From: Mycolicibacterium sp. MU0050
Lineage (GTDB): Bacteria; Actinomycetota; Actinomycetes; Mycobacteriales; Mycobacteriaceae
Direction: 5' to 3'
Assembly (NCBI RefSeq): GCF_963378085.1
Contig: NZ_OY726395.1
Coordinates: forward strand, 4,898,001 to 4,962,000
DNA: 64,000 bases
Shown here: piece by piece, positions 5,684 through 48,216 of the stretch
How positions within the stretch are numbered: position 1 is the first letter of the stretch
How the letters are laid out: each line of letters opens with the position of its first letter
Translations under genes and position numbers: made by a program
The notes under the pieces: generated by a model
The model's database searches: none
Seen by the model: only the letters and a program-made list of their open reading frames with translations
What the model was told of the DNA's origin: nothing

Positions 5684-7054
5684 ATGAGCCAGAAGCGCGC
5701 CGACCAGATGTCCCTGGTCGCATTCATGCAGGCGGGCAACGCCTCGGTGTACTCGGGATCGTGGCGGCATCCGGCCACCGAGCACGGTTATCTCGATGCG
5801 GCGTACTACGCCAAGGTGGGCCGTCAACTCGAAGAGGGCTGCTTCGACCTGATGTTCTTCGACGACCGGTTGGCGATGCCCGGCATCTACGGCCAGTCGG
5901 TGGCCGAGGCGGTGCGCTACGGCGCGCGACCGGTCAAACTCGACCTGTCGGTGGTGCTCGGTGTGCTGGCCGAGGCGACCTCACACATCGGCCTGGGCGC
6001 GACCTACTCCACCACCTACTACGCGCCGTTCCACGTGGCCCGCACGTTCGCCACGCTCGACCACCTGTCCCGTGGCCGAGCCGCGTGGAACGTGGTCACC
6101 TCGGTCAACGACAGCGAGGCGCAGAACTTCGGTGTGCAAAGCCATCTCGGCCACGACGAACGCTACGACCGCGCCGACGAGTTCCTCGAAGTGGTCGCCG
6201 GCCTGTGGGACAGCTGGGAGGACGAGGCCATCGTCGCCGACCGCGGGTCGGGCCAGTACGCCGACCCGACCAAGGTGCACGAGCTGGGTCATGTCGGACA
6301 GTACTTCTCGGCGCGCGGCCCGCTGACCGTGCCGCGCACCCCGCAGGGTCGACCCGTCATCCTGCAGGCCGGCTCGTCGGGCCGGGGCCGCGACTTCGCT
6401 TCGCGCTGGGCCGATCTGATCTTCACCGGCGATCCCGGCTTCGACGTCGCGCGCGCACACTACGCCGATCAGAAGCAGCGCATCGCCGAGTCCGGGCGCG
6501 ACCCGCAGACGGTGCGGATCTGCCCGATGGCCTACGCCGTGGTCGGCGAATCCGAATCCCACGCCAAGGAACGCGAGGCGATGTTCCTAGAGGACCTGGT
6601 GCACCCGATGGCGTCGCTGACGCTGCTGTCGGAGTTGATGAACTACGACTTCGCCCAGCACGATCTCGACGATCCGATCACCGACGATCTGCTCGCTCAA
6701 GCCTCGGGTATCCGCGGCCTGGTGCAGGGGTTGCGTGAGCATATCGGCGGGACGGTCCGGGTGCGCGACCTCGCCGCCCACCGCGCCACGCTGCTGCAGG
6801 GCCCAAGGTTCGTCGGCACCGGACCGCAGGTGGCCGATCAGATGGCGGCCTGGTTCGAAGACGGTGCGTGCGATGGGTTCGTGCTGGCCGCCACCCACAT
6901 GCCCGGTTCGTTCGAGGATTTCGTCCGGATGGTGGTGCCCGAGTTGCAGCGCCGCGGACTGTCCCGCACCGCCTACCAGGGTTCGACGCTGCGGGAGCAT
7001 CTCGGTTTGCCGCGCCCGGAGTCCAACCACCGCGGTGCCGGAATGGCCGTCTGA
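5684..7054 (+). CDS. NtaA/SnaA/DszA-family flavin-dependent monooxygenase
   Basis: 456-aa luciferase-fold monooxygenase of the nitrilotriacetate / dibenzothiophene-sulfone monooxygenase group, which uses reduced FMN from a separate reductase (none seen nearby). Characteristic stretches are WRHPATEHG, FDLMFFDDRLAMPG, the AAWNVVTSVNDSEAQNFG core, HDERYDRADEFLEV and PVILQAGSSGRGRDFA. ATG 5684 is favoured by the leaderless promoter; an in-frame TTG at 5648 would place the operator inside the gene. It is the first gene of a three-gene operon with a CoA-transferase (4-bp overlap) and a CitE-type lyase. Confidence 0.9.
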   Translation: MSQKRADQMSLVAFMQAGNASVYSGSWRHPATEHGYLDAAYYAKVGRQLEEGCFDLMFFDDRLAMPGIYGQSVAEAVRYGARPVKLDLSVVLGVLAEATSHIGLGATYSTTYYAPFHVARTFATLDHLSRGRAAWNVVTSVNDSEAQNFGVQSHLGHDERYDRADEFLEVVAGLWDSWEDEAIVADRGSGQYADPTKVHELGHVGQYFSARGPLTVPRTPQGRPVILQAGSSGRGRDFASRWADLIFTGDPGFDVARAHYADQKQRIAESGRDPQTVRICPMAYAVVGESESHAKEREAMFLEDLVHPMASLTLLSELMNYDFAQHDLDDPITDDLLAQASGIRGLVQGLREHIGGTVRVRDLAAHRATLLQGPRFVGTGPQVADQMAAWFEDGACDGFVLAATHMPGSFEDFVRMVVPELQRRGLSRTAYQGSTLREHLGLPRPESNHRGAGMAV

Positions 7055-40364: not shown

Positions 40365-41630
40365 ATGGCTCGGTTTCCCAAACCAGCTGAAGGCAGTTGG
40401 ACCCAGCACTACCCCGAACTGGGCACCGGACCGGTGTCGTACGAGGATTCGATCAGTCCGGAAATCTACGAACTCGAGCGTAAGGCGATCTTCAAGCGCG
40501 CCTGGCTCAACGTCGGCCGCGTCGAGCAGGTGCCCCGCACCGGCAGCTACTTCACCAAGGAGATGAAGGCGGCCAACACGTCAATCATCGTCGTGCGCAA
40601 CAAGTCCGGCGACATCAACGCTTTCCACAACGTGTGCCGGCACCGCGGCAACAAGCTGGTGTGGGACGACATGCCGCTCGAGGACACCAGCGGTATGTGT
40701 CGGCAGTTCATCTGCAAGTACCACGCCTGGCGCTACGACCTGGACGGCAACCTGACCTATGTGCAGCAGGAAGAAGAGTTCTTCGACCTGGACAAGAGCC
40801 GCTACGGCCTGGTGCCCGTGCACTGCGAAGTGTGGGAGGGGTTCATCTTCGTCAACTTCGCCGAGACCCCGGAGCAGTCGCTGCGCGATTTCCTCGGGCC
40901 CATGATCACCGGCCTCGAGGGCTACCCCTTCGACAAGATGACCTCGCGGTTCACCTATCGCTCCGACGTGAAGGCGAACTGGAAGCTGTACATGGACGCT
41001 TTCCAGGAGTTCTACCACGCCCCGGTACTGCATGCGAACCAGTCCCCCACGGCGTACTCGAAGGCCGCCGCGCAGGCCGGATTCGAGGCACCGCACTACC
41101 GGATCGACGGTCCGCATCGCCTGGTGAGCACCTCCGGGGTACGGGCCTGGGAGATGGCCGACGAGATGCGCAAGCCGATCGAGGACATCTGCCAGAGCGG
41201 ACTCTTCGGCCCTTGGGACAAGCCGGATCTCGGTGAGATGCCGCCCGGCCTCAACCCCGCCAACTGCGACCCGTGGGGCCTTGATTCGTTCCAGCTGTTC
41301 CCGAACTTCGTGATCCTGTTCTGGGGGCAGGGTTGGTACCTGACCTATCACTACTGGCCGACGTCGTTCAACACCCACACCTTCGAGTGCACGCTGTACT
41401 TCCCCCAGCCTCGGACCCCGCGCGAGCGGTTGGGCCAGGAGTTGGCCGCGGCCTCGTTCAAGGAGTACGGCCTGCAGGACGCGAACACCCTGGAGGCCAC
41501 CCAGTCCGCCATCGAGTCGAGGGTGGTCCAGGAGTTCCACCTATGCGACCAGGAGATCCTGCTGCGGCACCTGCACAAGGAGACCGCCGCCTGGATCGAG
41601 GACTACCAGCGCACGACGGCCGGGGTGTGA
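40365..41630 (+). CDS. Rieske non-haem iron oxygenase, alpha subunit (canonical ligands)
   Basis: 421 aa. Rieske 2Fe-2S ligands are canonical: C91-R-H93 (CRHRG) and C117-K-Y-H120 (CKYHAW). The mononuclear iron site is E215-x2-H218-x4-H223 (EFYHAPVLH) after KANWKLYMDAFQ. It hydroxylates an unknown substrate with electrons likely from the KshB-like reductase at 43842. ATG 40365 has GAGGAGCGGGC. It is paralogous to the protein at 45739 (same WPKPAEGSW/RFPKPAEGSW opening) and followed by a similar ~110-aa protein, so the two modules arose by duplication. Confidence 0.93.
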   Translation: MARFPKPAEGSWTQHYPELGTGPVSYEDSISPEIYELERKAIFKRAWLNVGRVEQVPRTGSYFTKEMKAANTSIIVVRNKSGDINAFHNVCRHRGNKLVWDDMPLEDTSGMCRQFICKYHAWRYDLDGNLTYVQQEEEFFDLDKSRYGLVPVHCEVWEGFIFVNFAETPEQSLRDFLGPMITGLEGYPFDKMTSRFTYRSDVKANWKLYMDAFQEFYHAPVLHANQSPTAYSKAAAQAGFEAPHYRIDGPHRLVSTSGVRAWEMADEMRKPIEDICQSGLFGPWDKPDLGEMPPGLNPANCDPWGLDSFQLFPNFVILFWGQGWYLTYHYWPTSFNTHTFECTLYFPQPRTPRERLGQELAAASFKEYGLQDANTLEATQSAIESRVVQEFHLCDQEILLRHLHKETAAWIEDYQRTTAGV

Positions 41631-41635
41631 CCGCG

Positions 41636-41965
41636 ATGAGTAGCATCCTGCCCCCGGAATTCGCCGACCTCGAGCCGTTCTCCGAGTGGTCGCTGGGCTC
41701 CGAACCGGAGCGCTACGCAAAGCGTCTGAACAGCACCATGACCGAGATGCAGGCCTTCTACGACGCCATCACCGCGCGCGCCGAGGAGGCCATCTCCTAC
41801 TGCGACAAGTTCAGCCTCGACGACATGCCCGAGGACGTGCTCAACCTGATGCACCTGCTGTATTCGATGGTGACGGTGTCCTTCCCGGTCGAATGCTGGA
41901 AGCAACCGCGCGTGCCCGACTCCGGGGCCACGTCGTTGGATTGCGTCGCCGAGCCCGTCCCGTGA
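41636..41965 (+). CDS. Small Rieske-oxygenase companion protein, copy 1
   Basis: 109 aa, cytoplasmic, acidic, mostly helical, with no metal-binding motif of a known kind. It shares with the protein at 47007 the pattern EPF-x(n)-MQ-FYDA, EEAI-YCDKF, LDD-PED-LNL-HL-YS. Both directly follow Rieske alpha-subunit genes. It could be a small beta-like or assembly subunit; known oxygenase beta subunits are larger (~160-190 aa). GTG 41627 (overlapping the previous stop) is an alternative start. Family not recognised. Confidence 0.8.
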   Translation: MSSILPPEFADLEPFSEWSLGSEPERYAKRLNSTMTEMQAFYDAITARAEEAISYCDKFSLDDMPEDVLNLMHLLYSMVTVSFPVECWKQPRVPDSGATSLDCVAEPVP

Positions 41966-43841: not shown

Positions 43842-44903
43842 ATGCCTCCTGCGACCCGCCCCGTTGACACGGCCGCAGCGGTGACCCCGTCCAGTTCGAA
43901 CGGGTTCGCGCCGCTGCGGGTCAAACGCGTTGTGCAGGAGACCGCCGACGCGGTCTCCCTGATCTTCGAGGTCCCCGACGGGGACCGCGAGCGCTTCGCC
44001 TACCGCTCCGGGCAATTCGTCACCTTGCGGGTGCTCATCGACGGTCACGAGCACCAGCGCTGCTACTCCATGTCGTCATGTCCGGTGCTGGAAGCGGACC
44101 TGCAGGTCACGGTGAAACGCGACCGCGGCGGGCTGGTGTCCAATTGGCTCAACGACAACGCCGCCGTGGGCGCCGAATACAGCGTCGGGCCCCCGGAGGG
44201 CCGCTTCGTGCTCACCGACACCGATCGCGAACTGGTCGCGTTCGCCGGCGGCAGCGGCATCACGCCGGTGATCTCGCTGCTGCGCTCCGCGCTGACCGCC
44301 ACCCCACGACGGGCCGGGCTCTTCTATGCCAACCGCGGCCGTGATTCGATCATCTTCGCCGATGCCCTGGCACAGCTGGAAACCGAGCATCCCGAACGCT
44401 TCTCGCTGCGACACCACCTCGACGAGTCCGCCGGGGTGGTGTCGCAGCAACACGTCGCCGAGTTCATGCGCGGCCGCGGCAACGCCGACGTATACGTGTG
44501 CGGGCCCGGGCCGTTCATGGACACCGTCGAGACGGCGCTGCTCGAGTTCGGGGTGCCCCGCCAACGCATCCACCTCGAACGTTTCACCGCTGTCGCGGCC
44601 CCGGCCCCCGACACCAACGGCGCCGTGATCACCGAAGAGGTGACCATCCAGCTGGATCGCACCACGGTCACGCAGCCCTACCGCGCCGGCAACACCTTGC
44701 TGCAGACCGCCCGGCTGGCCGGCCTGAAGGCCCCGTCGTCGTGTGAAACCGGTTCGTGCGGAACGTGTATGGCGCAGGTGACCGAGGGATCCGCCCGGAT
44801 GCTCAACAACGACGCCCTGGACGACGACGAGGTGGCCGAGGGCTGGGTGGTCACCTGCCAAGCGATCCCCACCAGTCCGACGGTGCGGGTGGTCTACGAG
44901 TGA
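43842..44903 (+). CDS. KshB-like ferredoxin reductase (FAD + plant-type 2Fe-2S)
   Basis: 353 aa: FAD domain (~20-120; RCYSMSSCP), NAD domain (~125-255; FAGGSGITPVISLLRSAL, YVCGPGPFMDTVE) and a C-terminal plant-type 2Fe-2S domain with C301, C306, C309 and C339 (CETGSCGTC). The layout equals the reductase of 3-ketosteroid 9-alpha-hydroxylase and phenylacetyl-CoA epoxidase. It should pass electrons from NADH to the Rieske oxygenases. ATG 43842 has no clear ribosome site, and MarR site B lies just upstream. Confidence 0.93.
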   Translation: MPPATRPVDTAAAVTPSSSNGFAPLRVKRVVQETADAVSLIFEVPDGDRERFAYRSGQFVTLRVLIDGHEHQRCYSMSSCPVLEADLQVTVKRDRGGLVSNWLNDNAAVGAEYSVGPPEGRFVLTDTDRELVAFAGGSGITPVISLLRSALTATPRRAGLFYANRGRDSIIFADALAQLETEHPERFSLRHHLDESAGVVSQQHVAEFMRGRGNADVYVCGPGPFMDTVETALLEFGVPRQRIHLERFTAVAAPAPDTNGAVITEEVTIQLDRTTVTQPYRAGNTLLQTARLAGLKAPSSCETGSCGTCMAQVTEGSARMLNNDALDDDEVAEGWVVTCQAIPTSPTVRVVYE

Positions 44904-44946
44904 TCGGCAACAGAAAGGCGTCCAGCGTGTGTTCGGTGGGGTTCCG

Positions 44947-45690
44947 ATGAACCGGGTGGCGGTGGTGACCGGCGGCGCGTCCGGGATGGGCGAAGCGACC
45001 TGCCACGAACTCGGCCGACGCGGCTGCTCTGTCGCCGTGGTCGACGTCAATGCCCAAGCGGCACAACGCGTCGCCGATGATCTGCGGCGCGACGGGGTCA
45101 CCGCGACGGCGGTGCGCGCCGACGTCACCGACCGGGCCGGCGTCCAGGACGCCTTCGCCAAGGTCCGCGCCGAGCTCGGGCCCATCGAGATCCTGGTGAC
45201 CAGCGCGGGCCTGTTCGGCTTCGCGTCCTTCGCAGACATCACGGTCGACGACTGGCAACGCATGATCGACGTGAACCTGACCGGCACCTTCCATTGCTGC
45301 CAGGTGGCCCTGCCCGACATGGTGGCCGCCGGCTGGGGCCGCATCGTGATGATCTCGTCGTCCAGCGCGCAGCGCGGCACCCCGTTCGCCGCGCACTACG
45401 CGTCCTCCAAGGGGGCGCTGCTGACGCTGACGAAGTCGCTGGCACGGGAGTACGCGTCGGTGGGCATCACGGTCAACAACATTCCGCCCTCGGGCATCGA
45501 AACCCCGATGCAGCACCAGTCCCAGGCCGCCGGCCACCTCCCCGACAACGACACCATTGCCGCCAACATCCCCATGGGACGGCTTGGCACCGGCGCGGAC
45601 ATCGCCGCGGCCGTCGGATTCCTGTGCTCCGAGGAAGCCGGCTTCATCACCGGCCAAACCCTCGGCGTCAACGGTGGGTCCGTCATGTGA
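44947..45690 (+). CDS. SDR-family NAD(P)-dependent oxidoreductase
   Basis: 247 aa classical SDR: VVTGGASGMGEATC cofactor loop, VDVN acid after beta-2 (NAD preference), SAGLFG, ISSSSAQ with the catalytic Ser, and YASSK with the Tyr/Lys pair. ATG 44947 is preferred to GTG 44929. The gene lies 43 bp after the reductase and 48 bp before the second oxygenase. It could oxidise a cis-diol or alcohol made by the oxygenases. Confidence 0.92.
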   Translation: MNRVAVVTGGASGMGEATCHELGRRGCSVAVVDVNAQAAQRVADDLRRDGVTATAVRADVTDRAGVQDAFAKVRAELGPIEILVTSAGLFGFASFADITVDDWQRMIDVNLTGTFHCCQVALPDMVAAGWGRIVMISSSSAQRGTPFAAHYASSKGALLTLTKSLAREYASVGITVNNIPPSGIETPMQHQSQAAGHLPDNDTIAANIPMGRLGTGADIAAAVGFLCSEEAGFITGQTLGVNGGSVM

Positions 45691-45738: not shown

Positions 45739-47010
45739 ATGGCGGCACAATGGCCGAAACCGGCTGAAGGATCCTGGACCGAGCACTACCCGGAACTCGG
45801 TACGGGCCCGATATCGTTCCGCGACTCCATCTCGCCGGAGTTCTACGCGGCCGAGCAGGAGGCGATCTTCAAGCGGGCGTGGTTGAACATCAGCCGCGTC
45901 GAGGAGACGCCCGAGCCCGGCAGCTACATCACCCGGCAGGTGGAGGCGGTCGACGCCGCGCTGCTCCTCGTCAAGGACGAGAACGGCCGGATCCGAGCCT
46001 TCCACAACAGCTGTCGGCGACGGGGCCACCCGGTGGTCACCATCGACTACCGCGCTTCCGAACTGCGCAACACCGGAACCGGATTCACCTGCCGGCACTG
46101 CGGTTGGGAGTATGGGCTCGACGGGTCCCTGAGGTCCGTTCCGGATCCGGATCATTTCGCTGATCTGGACCTCGTCGACTTCGGCTTGAAGGAGGTGCAC
46201 TGCGATGTCTGGGCCGGCTTCGTGTTCCTCAACTTCGACGAGAACCCGCGCCAGAGCCTGCGGGAGTTCCTCGGACCGATGGTCACCGGTCTCGACGACT
46301 ATCCCTTCGACAAGCTGACCGAGCGCTACGACTGGGTCGCCCACAACAACAGCAACTGGAAAATCTTCGCCGACGCCTTCCAGGAGTACTACCACGTGCC
46401 GGCCCTGCACACCCAGCAGGTGCCGCCGGAGGTTCGCAACCCCGGCGCCGGGTTCACCTGCGGGCATTTCCAACTCGACGGGCCGCACCGGTTGGTCTCC
46501 ACCGCGGGCACCCGCCGCTGGCTGCTGGCCCCGGAATACATGTATCCGATCGAACGGGCCACCCGCTCCGGGCTGGTCGGGCCGTGGCGCACCCCCGACA
46601 TCGGCGAGCTGCCCGCCGGGCTGAACCCCGGTGGCATCGAACCGTGGGGCATCAGCAACTTCCAGATCTTCCCCAACCTGGAGATCCTCATCTACGGCGG
46701 CTGGTATCTGGTGTACCGGTACTGGCCGACGTCGTACAACACCCACCGCTACGAGGCTTTCACGTACTTCCATCCGGCGCGGACGGTCCGGGAGCGGATC
46801 GAACATGAAGTCGCCGCAGTGGTTCTCAAGGAATTCGCGCTGCAGGACGCGGGCATGCTGGGCGGGACCCAGGCCGCACTCCAGTACGACGTCGTCGACG
46901 AGTTCCCGGTCAACGACCAGGAGATCCTGGTGCGCCACCTGCACAAGACCGTCGCCGACTGGGTCAGCGACCATCAGCGCGAGCGGACCCCGGCAGGAGC
47001 CCAGCAATGA
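45739..47010 (+). CDS. Rieske-type oxygenase alpha subunit with altered cluster ligands
   Basis: 423 aa, paralogue of the protein at 40365. The mononuclear iron site is intact: E216-x2-H219-x4-H224 (EYYHVPALH). The Rieske site is not: CxH has become C92-R-R94 (CRRRG), and CxxH has become C118-R-H-C121 (CRHCGW). Both histidine ligands are lost and a cysteine is gained. Reading frame and surrounding fold are well preserved, so it looks selected rather than decayed. It may bind a differently ligated cluster, take electrons from its paralogue in a mixed oligomer, or work without a Rieske cluster. ATG 45739 follows ACGGAGG. Confidence 0.9.
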   Translation: MAAQWPKPAEGSWTEHYPELGTGPISFRDSISPEFYAAEQEAIFKRAWLNISRVEETPEPGSYITRQVEAVDAALLLVKDENGRIRAFHNSCRRRGHPVVTIDYRASELRNTGTGFTCRHCGWEYGLDGSLRSVPDPDHFADLDLVDFGLKEVHCDVWAGFVFLNFDENPRQSLREFLGPMVTGLDDYPFDKLTERYDWVAHNNSNWKIFADAFQEYYHVPALHTQQVPPEVRNPGAGFTCGHFQLDGPHRLVSTAGTRRWLLAPEYMYPIERATRSGLVGPWRTPDIGELPAGLNPGGIEPWGISNFQIFPNLEILIYGGWYLVYRYWPTSYNTHRYEAFTYFHPARTVRERIEHEVAAVVLKEFALQDAGMLGGTQAALQYDVVDEFPVNDQEILVRHLHKTVADWVSDHQRERTPAGAQQ

Positions 47011-47342
47011 CCACGCCACGCTTGCCCAGCGCCTTTGCCGAGCTGGAGCCGTTCGCCGAAACATGGTGCCTGCCAACGGAGACCGAGCGGTGGAACCAGC
47101 GGCTGTCCAGCAGCATGCCCGCCATGCAGGAGTTCTACGACGCGTTCTTTCCGCGCGTCGAAGAGGCGATCGAGTATTGCGACAAGTTCACCTTGGATGA
47201 CCTACCCGAGGACGCGCTCAACCTGCTGCACCTGATCTATTCGCTGGTGATGGTGGCCATGGCCGTGGAGATCATGCATCAGCCGGCACCCGTCGACGCC
47301 GCCGACGCGGTGATGATCCGCACCGGCGAACCCCGCCCGTGA
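47007..47342 (+). CDS. Small Rieske-oxygenase companion protein, copy 2
   Basis: 111 aa. Paralogue of the protein at 41636: ELEPFAE, MQEFYDAFFPR, EEAIEYCDKFTLDDLPED and LNLLHLIYSLV. Start ATG 47007 overlaps the stop of the altered oxygenase gene (ATGA), so translation is coupled and a 1:1 complex is plausible. Predicted soluble and helical. Family not recognised. Confidence 0.82.
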   Translation: MTTPRLPSAFAELEPFAETWCLPTETERWNQRLSSSMPAMQEFYDAFFPRVEEAIEYCDKFTLDDLPEDALNLLHLIYSLVMVAMAVEIMHQPAPVDAADAVMIRTGEPRP

Positions 47343-47370: not shown

Positions 47371-48216
47371 ATGAGCCTGCTGACCATCAACAAACTGACT
47401 TCCTCTGTCGGCGCCGAGGTGGTGGGCGTCGACCCCGACCGGCTCGCGACCGATGGCGGCCTGGGCGCCGCGGTCCTCGATGCCCTGGAGGACAACGGAG
47501 TTCTGGTGTTTCACGACCTGAACCTCAGCCCCGAGGCGCAGGTCGCGTTCGCCGAGCGGCTGGGCCAGATCGACCGGTCCGCCGACGGGCACCACCCGGT
47601 CTCGGGCATCTACCCGATCACCCTGGACAAGTCGAAGAACAGCGCGGCCGAGTACCTCAAGGCCACGTTCGACTGGCACATCGACGGCTGCACCCCGATG
47701 GGCGACGAGTGCCCGCAGAAGGCCACCGTGCTGTCGGCCGTGCAGGTCGCCGCAACGGGCGGGGAGACCGAGTTCGCCAACTCCTACGCGGCGTACGAGA
47801 CTCTGAGCGACGCCGAGCAGAAGCACTACGCAACGCTCCGGGTGGTGCATTCCCTGGAGGCCTCGCAGCGGCGGGTGTACCCGAACCCCACCGAGGACCA
47901 ACTGTCCCGCTGGAAAAGTCGCGCCACCCACGAGCATCCCTTGGTGTGGACGCACCGCAGCGGCCGAAAGTCGTTGGTGCTGGGCGCGTCGGCGGACTAC
48001 ATCGTCGGCATGGACCTCGCCGAGGGCCGCGCGCTGCTCGACGAGTTGCTGGCGCATGCCACCGCGCCGGGCCGGGTGTACAGCCACCAGTGGTCGGTCG
48101 GCGACACCGTCATCTGGGACAACCAGGGGGTTCTGCACCGCGCGGCACCCTACGAGCCCAACTCGCCCCGGGAGATGTTGCGCACCACCGTGCTGGGCGA
48201 CGAGCCCATCCAGTGA
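47371..48216 (+). CDS. TauD/TfdA-family 2-oxoglutarate-dependent dioxygenase
   Basis: 281 aa non-haem Fe(II) enzyme. The HxD-H facial triad is visible: H103-x-D105 (FDWHIDG) and H256 (GVLHRAAPY), with R267 (PREMLRTTV) for 2-oxoglutarate. It oxidises an unknown small molecule; family members act on taurine, phenoxyacetates and sulfonates. AGAAAGGCC is the ribosome site. Last gene of the forward Rieske cluster; a hairpin follows. Confidence 0.92.
   Translation: MSLLTINKLTSSVGAEVVGVDPDRLATDGGLGAAVLDALEDNGVLVFHDLNLSPEAQVAFAERLGQIDRSADGHHPVSGIYPITLDKSKNSAAEYLKATFDWHIDGCTPMGDECPQKATVLSAVQVAATGGETEFANSYAAYETLSDAEQKHYATLRVVHSLEASQRRVYPNPTEDQLSRWKSRATHEHPLVWTHRSGRKSLVLGASADYIVGMDLAEGRALLDELLAHATAPGRVYSHQWSVGDTVIWDNQGVLHRAAPYEPNSPREMLRTTVLGDEPIQ

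Follow-up and report, generated by a model that had tools for sequence, protein, structure and literature searches.

A 64,000-nucleotide stretch of the genome of Mycolicibacterium sp. MU0050 (contig NZ_OY726395.1, positions 4,898,001 to 4,962,000 of the forward strand; hereafter the window) carries two paralogous genes for Rieske-type oxygenase alpha subunits, here called O and P, and in O the site of the Rieske [2Fe-2S] cluster has changed its ligand residues. This state is found across many mycobacteria as well as in some relatives: one subunit of an oxygenase pair has exchanged its cluster-binding histidines for other residues, mostly cysteines, with its catalytic iron site intact. We consider it probable that the two chains form an alpha/alpha-prime oxygenase in which the Rieske site of O is now a cysteine-rich, probably structural metal site and the catalytic iron of O is fed by P; in this reading the existence of a heteromer, the way electrons flow between the chains, and the identity of metal and substrate are all points that we infer. 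The main features of the two genes are:

45739..47010, forward strand: O, putative alpha-prime subunit with the Rieske-oxygenase fold and an altered cluster site; one open frame, 423 amino acids.
46012..46029, forward strand: first cluster loop of O, C92-R-R94-R-G-H97 (canonical C-R-H-R-G-N), from sequence and alignment.
46090..46101, forward strand: second cluster loop of O, C118-R-H-C121 (canonical C-K-Y-H), from sequence and alignment.
46012-46014 (C92, TGT), 46018-46020 (R94, CGA), 46090-46092 (C118), 46096-46098 (H120) and 46099-46101 (C121), forward strand: codons of O at the altered site.
46384..46410, forward strand: bridging glutamate E216 and mononuclear-iron ligands H219 and H224 of O, identical in 134/134 aligned O sequences.
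46846..46848, forward strand: D370 of O, likely third iron ligand, invariant in 44 aligned sequences and also in 90 canonical and 42 altered ones.
40365..41630, forward strand: P, the alpha-subunit paralogue of O, with the canonical loops CRHRG and CKYHAW; proposed donor of electrons to O, from sequence and alignment.

By homology O is an alpha subunit, as it has both a Rieske domain (Pfam Rieske, 36.1 bits, cut-off 20.3) and a catalytic domain (Ring_hydroxyl_A, 170.1 bits, cut-off 24.9). The canonical two-cysteine, two-histidine motif CxH...CxxH is absent from it, the corresponding residues being CRR and CRHC: its loops read CRRRGH and CRHCGW where P reads CRHRG and CKYHAW, and alignment of the two chains places R94 on the first ligand histidine and C121 on the second. 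These substitutions, C92-R-R94 and C118-R-H-C121 in place of CxH/CxxH, had been proposed in an earlier note made from the window sequence, together with a canonical paralogue about 5 kb upstream, and our comparison bears out both statements. The note also held that both histidine ligands were lost; the two positions have indeed changed, but H120 and H97 adjoin them, and H97 is the better candidate for a substitute. Alignment further indicates that O retains the bridging acid and the 2-His-1-carboxylate iron site. The catalytic 2-His-1-Asp site probably comprises H219, H224 and D370; the position and invariance of D370 are observed, and its ligand role is one that we assume from the family. Counting O itself, the window genome contains seven matches to O; after O the best is P, at 54%. 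The iron motif that the note gave as E216/H219/H224 is preserved in its residues, but E216 is not an iron ligand: it is the counterpart of the bridging glutamate E205 of CntA (alignment to CntA, chain numbering offset by 20; PMC7948474).

The altered site is shared widely. A scan across 84,980 species genomes, with the best 80 of 234 places retained, and draws spread evenly over the genus and the family supplied 134 distinct orthologues; a directed search of 26 genomes added 14 four-cysteine and 10 canonical ones, these 24 not de-duplicated by sequence, for a total of about 158. The 134-sequence set omits identical sequences, those under 380 amino acids (4 short P) and L001-L007, with out-of-frame matches skipped; O loci L266-L295 stand outside the motif count. 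Altered sites were found in 58 of the roughly 158 orthologues (39 CxxC, 3 CxxS and 16 CP[RG]C...C[KR]RC), a proportion that is no frequency, the scan having retained its best 80 places and relied on a single peptide pattern drawn from the altered site. The 134 distinct sequences divide into 90 canonical at both histidines with N97, 42 of a CxxC group (position 121 is Cys in 39 and Ser in 3) and 2 with CPRC/CKRC. The exact CRRR/CRHC pair occurs in 18/134, the window included; within the 42-sequence clade, 25 combine Arg94 with Cys121. Since the altered residues are common to other species, sequencing error is excluded; the homologue search recovered a conserved clade that carries the change, and the prospect raised in the earlier note, that all homologues but this one would be canonical, proved wrong. 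Relatives show CxH/CxxH, CxH/CxxC, CxR/CxxC and CPxC/CxxC, so that O of the window represents one of several states in a series. Aldersonia and Gordonia are among the relatives in which O is altered. A plasmid search returned only four relatives, at 33-34%.

Within the CxxC/CxxS group H94 is kept in 15/42 sequences and gone in 27, and position 97 is His in 27/27 sequences without H94 and Asn in 90/90 canonical ones; this coupling of H97 with the loss of H94 looks like a ligand exchange. H97 also occurs in one of the 15 sequences that keep H94 (L144, genome G733), a possible intermediate of such an exchange. A candidate 3Cys-1His set (C92, C118, C121 and either H94 or H97) can be read from 39/42 sequences. 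H120 was considered as a replacement ligand and found weaker than H97, being present in 23/27 sequences without H94 versus 27/27 (the exceptions are L020, L103 and the two Aldersonia sequences). Arginine is a cluster ligand in biotin synthase, and Arg94 may be one here, but a shared Arg ligand would not account for the clade, Aldersonia having Gln94. The second altered group has four cysteines in 16/16 sequences, in a rubredoxin or zinc-ribbon pattern, and retains D212, E216, H219, H224 and D370 in all 16. Deletions adjoin the cluster loops in some altered sequences, and profile scores vary: a four-cysteine member (L176) scores 15.5 bits with Pfam Rieske, under the cut-off, with weak, sub-threshold zinc-ribbon matches, and some altered sequences keep a strong Rieske score (L022, 53.5 bits).

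The two domains of altered O differ in constraint. We estimated the ratio of nonsynonymous to synonymous substitution rates (dN/dS) by simple counting over sequence pairs, at most 400 for each group (287 for P from the altered genomes), the pairs being drawn from one band of catalytic-domain divergence and not independent, with 77/90 sequences in the canonical group (L159-L172 left out). In the Rieske domain dN/dS was 0.37 for altered O versus 0.15 for canonical O, with 0.15 and 0.12 for P; in the catalytic domain it was 0.073 for altered O versus 0.087 for canonical O. P of the altered genomes gave 0.15 (Rieske) and 0.09 (catalytic domain). Of 39 Rieske residues invariant in the 90 canonical sequences only 11 are still invariant in the 42 and 23 fall below 90%, whereas 102 of 110 such catalytic-domain residues are still invariant. 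The lost Rieske invariants include W101, R114, Q115, K119, Y120, Q136, E139, F141 and the non-ligand C113; those kept are W48, L49, R53, G61, C92, G96, C118, W123, G129, L131 and L150. By parsimony C92 and C118 have undergone no change within the 42-sequence clade and C121 one, against a Rieske column mean of 6.6. Judged by these counts, the Rieske domain of altered O is largely released from constraint and the cysteines are not. The decay of the surrounding Rieske surface speaks against a fully working replacement cluster. A pseudogene or sequencing error is ruled out by sharing among many species and the catalytic dN/dS of 0.07, and the note's view of a functional gene is upheld by that value and the conserved gene order.

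P remained canonical in 102/103 distinct sequences, and it was read and canonical in 58/58 altered genomes (28 from a first set, 28 among 30 of a further set, plus L173 and G197). In no genome where both chains were read were both altered. The family draws held O in 57 genomes and P in 55 of these, the lists being compared by hand; the other two are the window genome, which lay outside the P draw and whose P was found separately, and G609, whose P is in two pieces. One further P genome, G1066, was absent from the first draw. A set of 151 P sequences that includes at least one O fragment (L252) is not the basis of the P counts. The sole altered P of the 103 (L172:2753-4021, genome G508) reads CRHHG...CKQRACGW with a two-residue insert, and O of that genome is canonical. 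In this P 9/44 P-invariant Rieske residues are changed, Q115, Y120, H121, Q136 and E139 among them, whereas five compared genomes of genus g23 show 0-1 such changes and 5-6 catalytic-domain differences versus 4 in L172. Here much of the same module has been lost in the other chain and is retained by the partner. In the genus draw G217 lacks P and has an O remnant in two frames with its first part missing and a canonical cluster motif (L323, G217:C10:66426-67492); a broken O without P fits an interdependence of O and P. Apparent cases of P without O in G102 and G198 were rejected, the O genes being cut by contig ends. In both (L252 and L251, respectively) O is cut near residue 200 with the rest on another contig, likely an assembly effect. 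No O was found in G359, where P lies near a contig end and the genome is 80% complete.

A tree built without the ligand region grouped the 42 sequences with a support of 92 in the Shimodaira-Hasegawa-like approximate likelihood ratio test (SH-aLRT), and a second tree with 62. One clade of all 58 altered sequences was not rejected by the approximately unbiased (AU) test (p 0.545), the tree held to that grouping being 2.54 log units better, and an independent origin of the four-cysteine group was dropped on this ground. The simplest history begins with a single H121-to-C change, followed by later steps lineage by lineage, the order of steps being one that we infer. Within this simplest history H94 was lost to Arg in the group of the window and to Gln in Aldersonia, a CPxC first loop arose in a small-genome Mycobacterium group, and C121 changed to Ser near M. 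neoaurum.

O and P belong to one operon-like run of genes, in the order P, cP, amidohydrolase, MarR, reductase, SDR, O, cO and TauD. Besides O and P, its listed members are:

41627..41965, forward strand: cP, paralogous companion of P, from the open reading frame list and neighbourhood comparison.
43842..44903, forward strand: PaaE/GbcB-like reductase ending in a plant-type [2Fe-2S] domain; the start codon is approximate and the part searched was 43941-44903.
44929..45690, forward strand: SDR-family dehydrogenase directly upstream of O, from profile search.
47007..47342, forward strand: cO, 111-amino-acid companion whose start overlaps the O stop (ATGA), adjoining O in the compared layouts.
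47371..48216, forward strand: TauD-family dioxygenase, next in the same gene run, from profile search and neighbourhood comparison.

This gene order recurs in relatives, and P and O are linked in two orders, O standing before P in genus g23. Genus g23 is probably Nocardia-like. Each alpha chain is paired with its own small companion (47007-47342 and 41627-41965); cO has no Pfam or NCBIfam match, and cO and cP match each other at about 50% in relatives. The searched reductase stretch contains FAD, NAD and Fer2 domains and no Rieske match in Pfam, with GbcB among its better matches, and in the window this reductase probably serves as the upstream donor. In some relatives it has no match near O. 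At the slow-grower locus L033, where O is canonical, a 119-amino-acid plant-type [2Fe-2S] ferredoxin (5881-6240) stands in place of the full reductase of the window. In the four-cysteine species of L176 (L176:6604-12230) about 6 kb of other genes lie between MarR and SDR, and the window reductase is unmatched at the locus; these genes presumably encode two ATPase/VWA-like proteins, two membrane proteins and one TetR-like regulator. The amidohydrolase query of the neighbourhood comparison was taken in the wrong frame, so that its matches only place that stretch of DNA. Nothing naming the substrate of the operon was found among the open-licence papers listed.

Among characterized systems, CntA and GbcA are the best solved-structure and NCBIfam neighbours of O and likewise the best NCBIfam neighbour of P, although O scores far under the GbcA family cut-off (88 versus 670 bits). 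CntA is a head-to-tail alpha trimer in which the cluster lies 44 Å from the mononuclear iron within a chain and 12 Å between chains, so that electron transfer is intersubunit, and its bridging glutamate E205 is essential (PMC7948474). It has a single kind of chain with a working Rieske cluster, whereas the present system has two alpha chains, one with an altered cluster site. In Rieske oxygenases as reviewed, every alpha chain bears a cluster feeding the next chain (PMC12445004). Two different alpha chains in one complex are already known from NdmA/NdmB, described as alpha3alpha'3 (PMC12445004), and so is a cluster-less chain, NdmC, whose electrons come from the Rieske domain of a separate protein (PMC10380055). 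The cluster that NdmC lacks is described as present in NdmA and NdmB (PMC10380055), whereas one chain here is without the canonical ligands. In the NdmC system (NdmD, NdmE) the Rieske domain in question is on the reductase NdmD; no such arrangement occurs here, and O retains its domain with new ligands. No report of natural CxxC, CxR or CPxC alpha chains of Rieske oxygenases was found in listings of open-licence papers.

The altered site closely resembles laboratory mutants of an archaeal Rieske ferredoxin (ARF) of Sulfolobus, whose substitutions fall at the same positions and are almost identical: a CxxC second loop, then CxxC/CxxC. ARF H64C, equivalent to C121 of O, assembles a low-potential 3Cys-1His [2Fe-2S] cluster, H44I/K45C/H64C forms a rubredoxin-like mononuclear site, and changing the first histidine alone (H44C) or making the double mutant caused cluster assembly to fail or be largely impaired (PMC2946596). 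The four-cysteine group combines Cys95 with loss of H94 (to Arg, once to Gly) where the ARF mutant has Ile. The ARF proteins are engineered ferredoxins, while the change in O is natural and lies in an oxygenase. Rubredoxins and zinc ribbons are matched by CP[RG]C...C[KR]RC in 16/16 sequences of one group, where the pattern arose inside a Rieske domain; the window gene itself differs (CxRRGH...CxxC). A structural zinc or mononuclear iron is favoured for the four-cysteine and window groups, and a true 3Cys-1His cluster is possible where H94 is kept.

Taken together, we propose a single oxygenase built from two kinds of alpha chain, O and P. Within it P would keep its Rieske [2Fe-2S] cluster, accept electrons that the reductase passes on through its ferredoxin domain, and hand them across the subunit boundary, via the bridging glutamate of O, to the mononuclear iron of O, where O would oxidise the substrate. 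The Rieske domain of O would be retired from electron transfer, its pocket converted to a cysteine-rich site of C92, C118 and C121 with H94, H97 or C95 as a possible fourth ligand; this site would most likely bind zinc or a mononuclear iron in a structural role, holding the domain folded. Since O has lost its Rieske ligands yet keeps the electron-receiving bridging glutamate, a P neighbour explains it best. The earlier note had offered a cysteine-rich cluster and a partner fed by the paralogue as alternatives; both fit the data, and the partner gains from the reciprocal case of L172.

Three other explanations were weighed. O may still hold a 3Cys-1His (or Arg) [2Fe-2S] cluster of shifted potential that passes electrons, retuned and not retired. 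The low-potential cluster of ARF H64C, the sequences that keep H94, the invariance of C92 and C118 and the strong Rieske score of L022 all lend this some weight; nevertheless the strong relaxation of the Rieske domain, the CxxS sequences, the deletions beside the loops, the four-cysteine group, whose ARF counterpart makes a mononuclear site, and the poor cluster assembly of ARF H44C and the double mutant make it unlikely. Alternatively, the Rieske domain may merely be decaying and metal-free, O serving as a structural or substrate-binding subunit whose iron is not redox active. We regard this as quite doubtful: the raised Rieske dN/dS and the loss of C121 in three sequences agree with it, but the cysteines are kept in 42, 42 and 39 of 42 sequences amid scrambled neighbours with the non-ligand C113 lost, four cysteines recur in 16/16 sequences of the other group, and the bridging glutamate and iron ligands are retained. 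That O works independently of P with another electron source (direct ferredoxin or a peroxide shunt) is very improbable, as P is present in 58/58 altered genomes and O keeps a bridging glutamate known in CntA for receiving the Rieske electrons of the neighbour (PMC7948474); the intact mononuclear site would allow it and the stand-alone ferredoxin of L033 indicates that electron supply is evolvable, but O is canonical there, so the ferredoxin change does not track the altered site.

Several observations weigh against the alpha/alpha-prime arrangement with a retired O cluster. The cysteines are not alone in being fixed, 18/105 Rieske columns being unchanged in the 42 sequences, and L029, L116 and L119 have Ser at 121, with two cysteines left. 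The reciprocal case is a single genome, and, as P is nearly always canonical, finding it so in genomes with an altered O is in part to be expected. The exchange of H94 for H97 comprises only two independent losses, for which no sign test is possible, and a single origin of the 58 is not rejected, so that the two altered patterns need not be independent. The mononuclear site of P is equally conserved, so P is not merely a donor. If a closed head-to-tail trimer contained a single O, one of its irons would be without a working donor, and the alpha3alpha'3 form of NdmA/NdmB, if made of stacked homotrimers, would leave O unfed. A complex with both P-P and P-O contacts would serve both irons.

Whether these genes trace a natural series from a Rieske [2Fe-2S] cluster through a 3Cys-1His site to a rubredoxin/zinc-ribbon site within a living oxygenase, with a second alpha chain delivering electrons and either chain able to lose its cluster, is in our judgement evenly balanced. 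Domain-profile annotation would label most of these proteins ordinary dioxygenases. If the proposed arrangement is true, a widespread pair with one chain deprived of its cluster ligands would reveal which subunit donates and which catalyses, and these oxygenases would be natural single-donor enzymes for the study of intersubunit electron transfer. What was achieved in the laboratory, turning a Rieske site into a rubredoxin site, would also have a parallel in nature, several of whose intermediate states persist in living species.
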